Assembly (NCBI GenBank): GCA_022843485.1
Contig: JALHNM010000002.1
Span: forward strand, 30,238-94,237
Direction of reading: 5' to 3'
Length of the DNA stretch: 64,000 bases
Origin: Fimbriimonadaceae bacterium
GTDB lineage: Bacteria; Armatimonadota; Fimbriimonadia; Fimbriimonadales; Fimbriimonadaceae
The notes under the pieces are model-generated. The model made no database searches. It had not been told where the DNA came from and saw only the letters and a list, made by a program, of their open reading frames with translations. Each line of letters begins with the position of its first letter. The first letter of the stretch is position 1. Made by a program: the position numbers and the translations under genes. This document shows, one piece after another, positions 420 through 1,297 of this stretch.

Positions 420-1022
420 ATGGGCAAGGGCTCAACGAACGTGCGCTATGCCGAGGTCGATCGGGAAGTGCCGGGCGCACGCGTCCACGTCGTCCTCGAC
501 CTCGACAGCGGCCACCGGTGCGACGCCAATACCGGCGTCCCGTTCTTCGACGAGCTCCTCGCCCACCTCGCCCGCTACGCCGGCATCGGCCTTGGGGTGT
601 CGCTCGAGCCCGACGGCCCCGTCGGCCACCACCGAGTCATCGAGACTGTCGGCCTGTGCTTCGGCCTCGCGATCCAACGGGCCCTCGAGGACTCCGAGGC
701 TGTTGTCGGGACCGGGGACGCCCAGATCCCCGCCGGAGACGCGCTCGTGTCCTGTGCCCTCGACCTCGACGGCCGTCCGTTCCTCGGCTGGCACGTCGAG
801 CTCCAGCAAACCCTCGTCGCCGGGCTCGAGAGCGAGAACGTCCGCCAGTTCTTCGAGTCGTGCGCCCTGTTCGCCGGGGCCTCGCTCCACCTGCGGCGCG
901 AAGCGGGCTATAGCGACCAGCACGTCTGCGAGGCCCTGTTCAAGGCGTTCGGCAAGACCCTCCGCGAGGCCACGAGGCGGGCCGACCCCGGCCACGGCGT
1001 GCCGCTCAAGGGCCGGGGCTGA
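420..1022 (+). CDS. hisB: HisB-family protein (imidazoleglycerol-phosphate dehydratase fold), altered metal site
   Basis: A full-length (200 aa) HisB homologue: NTGVPFFDE (38-45), GHHRVIE (69-75), the CALDLDGRP strand (112-120), RQFF (142-145) and SDQHVCEALFKAF (165-177) line up without gaps with the two duplicated halves of the dehydratase. Canonical enzymes make imidazole acetol-phosphate in histidine synthesis using two Mn ions held by FFDH, HHxxE, HFF and HHxxE. Here four of those ligand positions differ: Glu45 for His, Arg72 for His, Gln143 for His, Gln167 for His. The family call is firm but dehydratase activity is doubtful; it may be a paralogue with another role. No other his gene is in the window. 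The selenoprotein gene starts 17 bases after its stop, suggesting co-transcription. Confidence 0.85.
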   Translation: MGKGSTNVRYAEVDREVPGARVHVVLDLDSGHRCDANTGVPFFDELLAHLARYAGIGLGVSLEPDGPVGHHRVIETVGLCFGLAIQRALEDSEAVVGTGDAQIPAGDALVSCALDLDGRPFLGWHVELQQTLVAGLESENVRQFFESCALFAGASLHLRREAGYSDQHVCEALFKAFGKTLREATRRADPGHGVPLKGRG

Positions 1023-1039
1023 GGTACCCTGGGCAGCCC

Positions 1040-1297
1040 ATGGTCGTCACCGTCACGTTCTGCATGGCGTGAAACTACGCCCCTCGCGCCGCCGGTCTGG
1101 CGGAGCAACTGTTCACCGCCTTCCAATCCCCCGTGGGGCAGCAGGGCCAACTGGAGTCCGTCACGCTCGTCCCCGGCGGCGGCGGGGTGTTCGACGTCCG
1201 GGTCGACGGGGACTTGGTCTATTCGAAACACCAAACCGGCCGCCACGCCGAGCCAGGCGAAGTCCTCGCCCTCATCAAGGACCGACTCCACCCCTAG
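1040..1297 (+). CDS. SelW/Rdx-family selenoprotein with in-frame UGA (selenocysteine)
   Basis: ATG at 1040 opens an 85-codon frame ending in TAG at 1295-1297 if the TGA at 1070-1072 is read as selenocysteine. The N terminus is MVVTVTFCMA-U-NYAPRAAGL, i.e. beta strand, CxxU, then helix. This is the redox motif and fold start of the SelT/SelW/SelH (Rdx) family, which is typically about 85 aa long. The remainder (strand LESVTLVPGGGGVFDVRVDGDLVYS, then TGRHAEPGEVLALIKDRL) also matches: the family ends with a G-x-F-E/D-V strand, a KxxxxRFP-like turn and a C-terminal helix. A stem CCGCC/GGCGG with loop GGTCT follows the TGA by 21 bases and fits a bacterial SECIS. The likely role is a thiol/selenol oxidoreductase. 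selA/B/C/D are not in this window. It sits 17 bases after the HisB-family stop. Confidence 0.85.
1089..1103 (+). promoter_or_regulatory. candidate bacterial SECIS element
   Basis: Perfect 5-bp stem CCGCC (1089-1093) / GGCGG (1099-1103) closing a GGTCT loop. The loop begins 21 bases after the UGA codon, inside the 16-37 base range known for bacterial SECIS. A G at the loop's first positions followed by U is the SelB-recognised feature, as in the fdhF element. Confidence 0.75.

Follow-up and report, generated by a model that had tools for sequence, protein, structure and literature searches.

In a window of 64,000 nucleotides, the whole stretch of Fimbriimonadaceae DNA that was analysed, positions 1040..1297 of the forward strand carry a SelW/Rdx gene, here called rdx, whose in-frame UGA is very probably decoded as selenocysteine (Sec) by the organism's own SelA, SelB, SelD and tRNA-Sec, the hairpin that follows the codon being the predicted SECIS element. 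This reading, drawn from comparison of sequences, supports the selenoprotein interpretation put forward in the initial annotation of the region. The gene is a UGA-type member of a known selenoprotein family, found here in a host of the phylum Armatimonadota.

Reading frame and family membership

Counting the UGA as a sense codon, the frame of rdx has 85 codons; it starts with ATG at 1040 and ends with TAG at 1295-1297, encoding 85 residues including U11. Its single in-frame TGA is codon 11 (1070..1072, forward strand), in the context T-F-C-M-A-U-N-Y, and was designated as a predicted selenocysteine codon on the basis of the TGA being kept among the Rdx genes of the phylum. The coordinates given initially (ATG 1040 to TAG 1297, with one TGA at 1070-1072) hold, as does the match of the TGA to the U in a C-x-x-U motif. 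The latter was identified by codon reading as C8-M-A-U11 (1061..1072, forward strand); it lies close to the N-terminus, beyond the first strand, as is characteristic of the family, and Cys homologues align their C with its U. A candidate ribosome-binding site, GAGGT (1021..1025, forward strand), was noticed in the sequence; it overlaps the 3' end of hisB and lies 14 nt upstream of the ATG. It should be added that 74 codons remaining open after the TGA have a probability of ~0.51 under a first-order model in this G+C-rich DNA, and the length of the open frame was therefore rejected as proof of read-through.

The 85-aa read-through protein matched the Pfam Rdx profile (PF10262) with 68.2 bits (cut-off 22.6) over residues 3-81, spanning both sides of the TGA, and TIGR02174 with 50.9 bits (cut-off 34.2). 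With both curated cut-offs passed, the product is a member of the Rdx/SelW-like family, which agrees with the 85-residue SelW/Rdx protein of the initial annotation. The best-scoring NCBIfam model was the equivalog NF041051 SelTWH_Campy, matched over the full model length; since its 82 bits stay below the curated cut-off of 88, assignment to this model was rejected. Searching against solved structures returned six distinct sequences at E <=0.01, over residues 3-85, the best of them being 3dex_A (E 4.1e-12). The Cys-type Rdx structures 3dex (SAV_2001), 2fa8 (Atu0228), 2oka, 2ojl, 2obk and 2p0g are of the same family by sequence, differing from rdx, in 3dex_A, whose alignment was inspected, by a Cys in place of the UGA, aligned with U. 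Homology to these solved Rdx proteins suggests a thioredoxin-like fold for the rdx product.

Bacterial SelW-like (SELENOW-like) selenoproteins share with rdx the family, the CxxU motif, in which Sec is the second of the two redox residues, and a hairpin within the coding region after the UGA. The SELENOW-like family is listed with PF10262 and CxxU in a portion of PMC9312934, and bacterial SelW-like selenoproteins are already in print, as passages of PMC1088965 and PMC1794560 document. According to a passage of PMC1794560, Cys homologues of SelW-like proteins, and of a few others, are very few or absent among organisms that use Sec; the single Cys-type gene among 39 found in the phylum (see below) fits the rarity described in that passage.

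Selenocysteine genes and the distribution of Rdx

The genome carrying rdx (2,958,556 bases, 98.78% complete) was searched for the genes of Sec synthesis and insertion. All four were present above their curated cut-offs, namely selA with 468 bits (cut-off 267.9), selB with 338.6 bits over its frame (242.25), selD with 334.9 bits (125) and tRNA-Sec (selC) with 72.3 bits (gathering score 47); ARAGORN likewise reported a tRNA-SeC with the anticodon tca. Because the genome has these four genes, the UGA of rdx is likely read as selenocysteine. The initial annotation had deduced from rdx that the organism possesses the Sec machinery, which proved right, and had considered such machinery little reported for the group, which did not, SelB being already in public data. 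Public SelB entries carry the names Fimbriimonadaceae bacterium and Fimbriimonas ginsengisoli, and the nearest named relatives of the SelB found here are those of Fimbriimonadaceae bacteria (identity up to 65%), with that of Fimbriimonas ginsengisoli at 57%; this protein similarity puts the organism in Fimbriimonadaceae, Armatimonadota. In print, no account of selenoproteins or selenium use in Armatimonadota or Fimbriimonas was found among open-licence main texts, the papers retrieved dealing with Planctomycetes and sheep rumen instead, and the term stem Armatimon(ad) is absent from the main texts of PMC5029168, PMC13188914, PMC12013277 and PMC9312934; an earlier record may exist.

Across the phylum, 39 of 291 genomes had an Rdx match, 38 of them with exactly one inner TGA and one without any stop. 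The TGA stands at the U of CxxU in all 38, the remaining genome (G062) having TGC at this codon, and its occurrence in 38/39 homologues exceeds chance. In other groups, 29 loci of named genomes were compared, of which 25 had TGA and four a Cys codon (TGC or TGT). The alignment of Cys homologues at the U of rdx, by which the initial annotation had proposed to check its reading, was thus seen in both phylum and other-group loci. In pairwise comparison of all 38 genes, divergence after the UGA amounted to 47%, 38% and 62% at codon positions 1, 2 and 3, respectively, the third positions differing most, as expected of translated sequence. Together with the Rdx match, this shows that the part downstream of the TGA is conserved as protein. 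Two of the marks by which bacterial selenoproteins are recognised, a UGA aligned with the Cys of homologues and conservation on either side of it, were found.

These data also bear on the question of whether the TGA might be a genuine stop, in which case rdx would be either a degenerate Rdx gene or a short one with its start beyond this codon. The standard code does end the frame at the TGA. Furthermore, a database search returned 160 proteins, of which the 120 listed were 48-74 aa long, and the 11 public homologues examined, including a 65-aa 'Rdx family protein [Armatimonadetes bacterium]', all begin after the TGA and the CxxU position. We nevertheless consider a genuine stop very improbable: it is not credible that 38 phylum and 25 other-group genes decayed independently at one codon, the frame is kept on both sides of the TGA with the cysteine of CxxU kept upstream, and a stop leaves unexplained the protein-like divergence after the UGA, the covarying hairpin described below and the Sec genes. 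With the UGA taken as a Sec codon, the short public proteins mean that gene models truncate such genes, 38 of which, UGA-type Rdx genes, are present in the 291 genomes of the phylum.

Rdx was found to co-occur with Sec genes. Within the family, tRNA-Sec was present in 22/23 genomes with Rdx vs 26/62 without it (Fisher p 3.9e-6), and over the phylum selA was present in 35/39 Rdx genomes vs 107/252 others (p 1.6e-8); both p-values ignore shared descent and are hence too small, the direction being clear despite it. Since ordinary tRNAs attain ~1e-7 to 1e-9 with the model used, tRNA-Sec was counted as present in the family when E was below 1e-10. For selA, presence corresponded to E up to 1.4e-59 (142 genomes); at other thresholds the count was 149 genomes (E up to 0.001) or 138 (curated cut-off passed). 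Counted by hand over the phylum, 34/39 Rdx genomes have tRNA-Sec (E below 1e-10), and the five without a clear one are 72-88% complete. No clear selA was detected in four Rdx genomes (G070, G006, G209 and G004), of which G004 has a weak match only, although it is 92% complete. It should also be mentioned that selA exceeds the cut-off in 138/291 genomes of the phylum vs only 39 with Rdx; in most of the selA-bearing genomes the Sec trait is presumably maintained by selenoproteins other than Rdx.

A phylogenetic tree of 68 Rdx rows, based on the 77 columns kept, had few forks resolved and does not discriminate between descent and transfer. One separate, supported clade (98/92) comprises ten Rdx genes of the order, eight of them from the family (L080, L070, L085-L087 and L089-L093). 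A W/Y/H-TN stretch occurs in nine of these ten, while most other Rdx have SK, and L085 belongs to a different genus from the seven of g32. Judging from these sequences, there seem to be two Rdx types within the family, whose origins may be separate.

The hairpin following the UGA

The predicted bacterial SECIS (1089..1103, forward strand) is a hairpin with a 5-bp stem and the loop GGUCU (1094-1098), reading CCGCC-GGUCU-GGCGG, its loop separated from the UGA by 21 nt; its assignment draws on fold, fixed place and covariation. The minimum-energy fold consisted of this hairpin and two outer G-C pairs (1086-1087/1105-1106). Taken alone, the rdx hairpin is no better than chance, with z 0.37 against dinucleotide shuffles (121/200 of which fold as well) and p 0.257 against synonymous-codon shuffles; one by one, 12/38 TGA genes of the phylum reach p below 0.05. 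On these figures single-sequence folding was rejected as proof of a SECIS; it is the comparison over relatives that shows selection. The 5-bp stem, GGTCT loop and 21-nt distance first noted for this hairpin were thus confirmed, whereas its use as evidence on its own was not upheld, the relatives being needed.

The limits for bSECIS elements taken from a portion of PMC13188914 are a loop of 3-9 nt, a stem of 4-16 bp, a G in the first two loop positions and a spacing of 16-37 nt. The rdx hairpin (5 bp, GGUCU, spacing 21) falls within them, and so do those of 38/38 phylum TGA genes, but also 3/5 Cys genes, for which reason agreement with the limits is weak evidence. Fixed place and covariation are stronger evidence for a SECIS than the published limits. 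The scoring of hairpins gene by gene took in the 38 TGA genes of the phylum, five Cys genes and 24 of the 25 TGA genes from elsewhere (L030 was omitted, as it contains an N).

A gap-free alignment of the 38 phylum genes was obtained for the 48 nt that directly follow the UGA, and in 36 of these genes the loop of the best hairpin starts 21 or 22 nt after the UGA. At the fixed place, the stem averaged 5.47 bp vs 1.96 bp (sd 0.35, maximum 3.24) when synonymous codons were shuffled within each gene for 2000 rounds. Stems of >=5 bp were present in 34/38 genes vs 7.7/38 after shuffling (maximum 16), the other four having fewer than 5 bp. A weaker stem excess was observed at centres 25, 26, 27 and 30 (z 3.3 to 5.0 vs 10.7 at the hairpin). 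The five Cys genes had stems of 0, 0, 4, 1 and 3 bp at the same place. In other-group TGA genes (n=24) the loop was located at 22 nt in 12 and at 17 nt in nine; the 21-22 nt seen in the phylum resembles the former half, and differs from the 17 nt of the Acidimicrobiia-type loci (9/24).

Columns 21/33 (1090/1102), both third codon positions, were paired in 38/38 genes through six pair types (CG 28, GC 3, UA 3, AU 2, GU 1, UG 1), and columns 23/31 (1092/1100), which also covary, were likewise paired in 38/38, as CG, UG and UA. The covariation score of 0.253, vs a shuffled mean of 0.141, was reached by 0/500 shuffles of the 3' letters. In a slide control with the partner moved by one to three columns, paired cells dropped from 75.7% to 52% or less; at slide -1, cells changed on both sides numbered 26 vs 24 in the structure, with 39.8% vs 75.7% of cells paired. 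Of the pairs further out, 17/37 forms in just 5 of the 38 genes, 18/36 in 16 and 19/35 in 18; the loop-closing pair 25/29 forms in 34. The outer pairs being rare, the conserved element comprises stem columns 20-24 with 30-34 plus the loop-closing pair 25/29. The rdx set thereby provides a clean example of a predicted coding-region SECIS backed by covariation at third codon positions.

Reading of the UGA as another amino acid, through suppression or a changed code and without selenocysteine, would give the same open frame as any read-through, with Cys insertion restoring CxxC, but is hardly to be believed, given that the neighbouring hisB terminates with UGA (1020-1022), as do several rdx homologues, that homologues carry at the position Cys, the sulphur twin of Sec, that Sec genes are present and co-occur with Rdx, and that a SECIS is needless under such read-through.

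Predicted function, other candidate selenoproteins and genomic context

With the UGA decoded as Sec, SelB would bind the hairpin after it and bring Sec-tRNA to the codon, and the product would adopt the thioredoxin-like Rdx fold with the C-x-x-U pair as its redox centre. Its role would most likely lie in thiol or peroxide homeostasis, and in the absence of selenium translation of rdx would stop after 10 residues. All of this, from the binding of SelB and the insertion of Sec to the role in redox chemistry, is predicted from sequence. As 38/39 members keep the UGA, SelW-type function could be probed in this phylum.

Rdx, SelD, Fdh-alpha, AhpC-TSA and CMD were the selenoprotein families searched for in the genome. 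The selD gene (L020, G000:C1:550246-551208) has its own in-frame TGA, in CAGUASKLGP, followed by a strong hairpin fold (-24.7 kcal/mol over 48 nt), and is a candidate selenoprotein gene. Another candidate is a peroxiredoxin gene on the minus strand (L111, G000:C4:4945-5307; PF00578, 108.6 bits), one of 13 AhpC-TSA matches in the genome, which bears a TGA; this codon lies in FTPGUGAQ, at what we take to be the peroxidatic position of a Bcp-type peroxiredoxin. For the selenium formate dehydrogenase, three weak matches to TIGR01591 were found in the genome, all below the cut-off and free of inner stops, and the CMD/AhpD family gave no match. A covariance model of the 38 elements, rdx's own included, was run on the genome of rdx, where 150 of the 2403 candidates from a first look were scored; at E up to 10 it matched rdx alone (52.5 bits). 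This search missed even the selD and peroxiredoxin candidates and found no further selenoprotein. A tentative and rather doubtful proposal would be that Fimbriimonadaceae like this one run a small selenoproteome for thiol and peroxide defence (SelW/Rdx, Bcp-type selenoperoxiredoxin and Sec-SelD) without a selenium formate dehydrogenase, the peroxiredoxin being accompanied by Rdx as a Sec-based thiol carrier. If true, selenium in such bacteria would serve peroxide chemistry and not formate metabolism.

In the window, rdx is flanked by hisB (PF00475), which ends at 1022, and by a gene for a VTT-domain protein (PF09335) starting at 1448. The gap of 17 nt between hisB and rdx suggests that the two may be jointly transcribed. 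However, in 8-kb stretches around rdx from nine of the 38 other phylum genomes with Rdx, tblastn gave no match at E 1e-4 for hisB, the VTT protein, the symporter or cutC; as the neighbourhood is kept in none of these nine relatives, the operon argument for rdx was dropped. Between rdx and the VTT gene, the stretch 1298-1420 contains two exact copies of TGCGTGAGCTCGCT (1310-1323 and 1334-1347), with two copies occurring in 0/100 shuffles. The same stretch has a strong predicted fold (z -2.11) and may represent a terminator or a repeat element.
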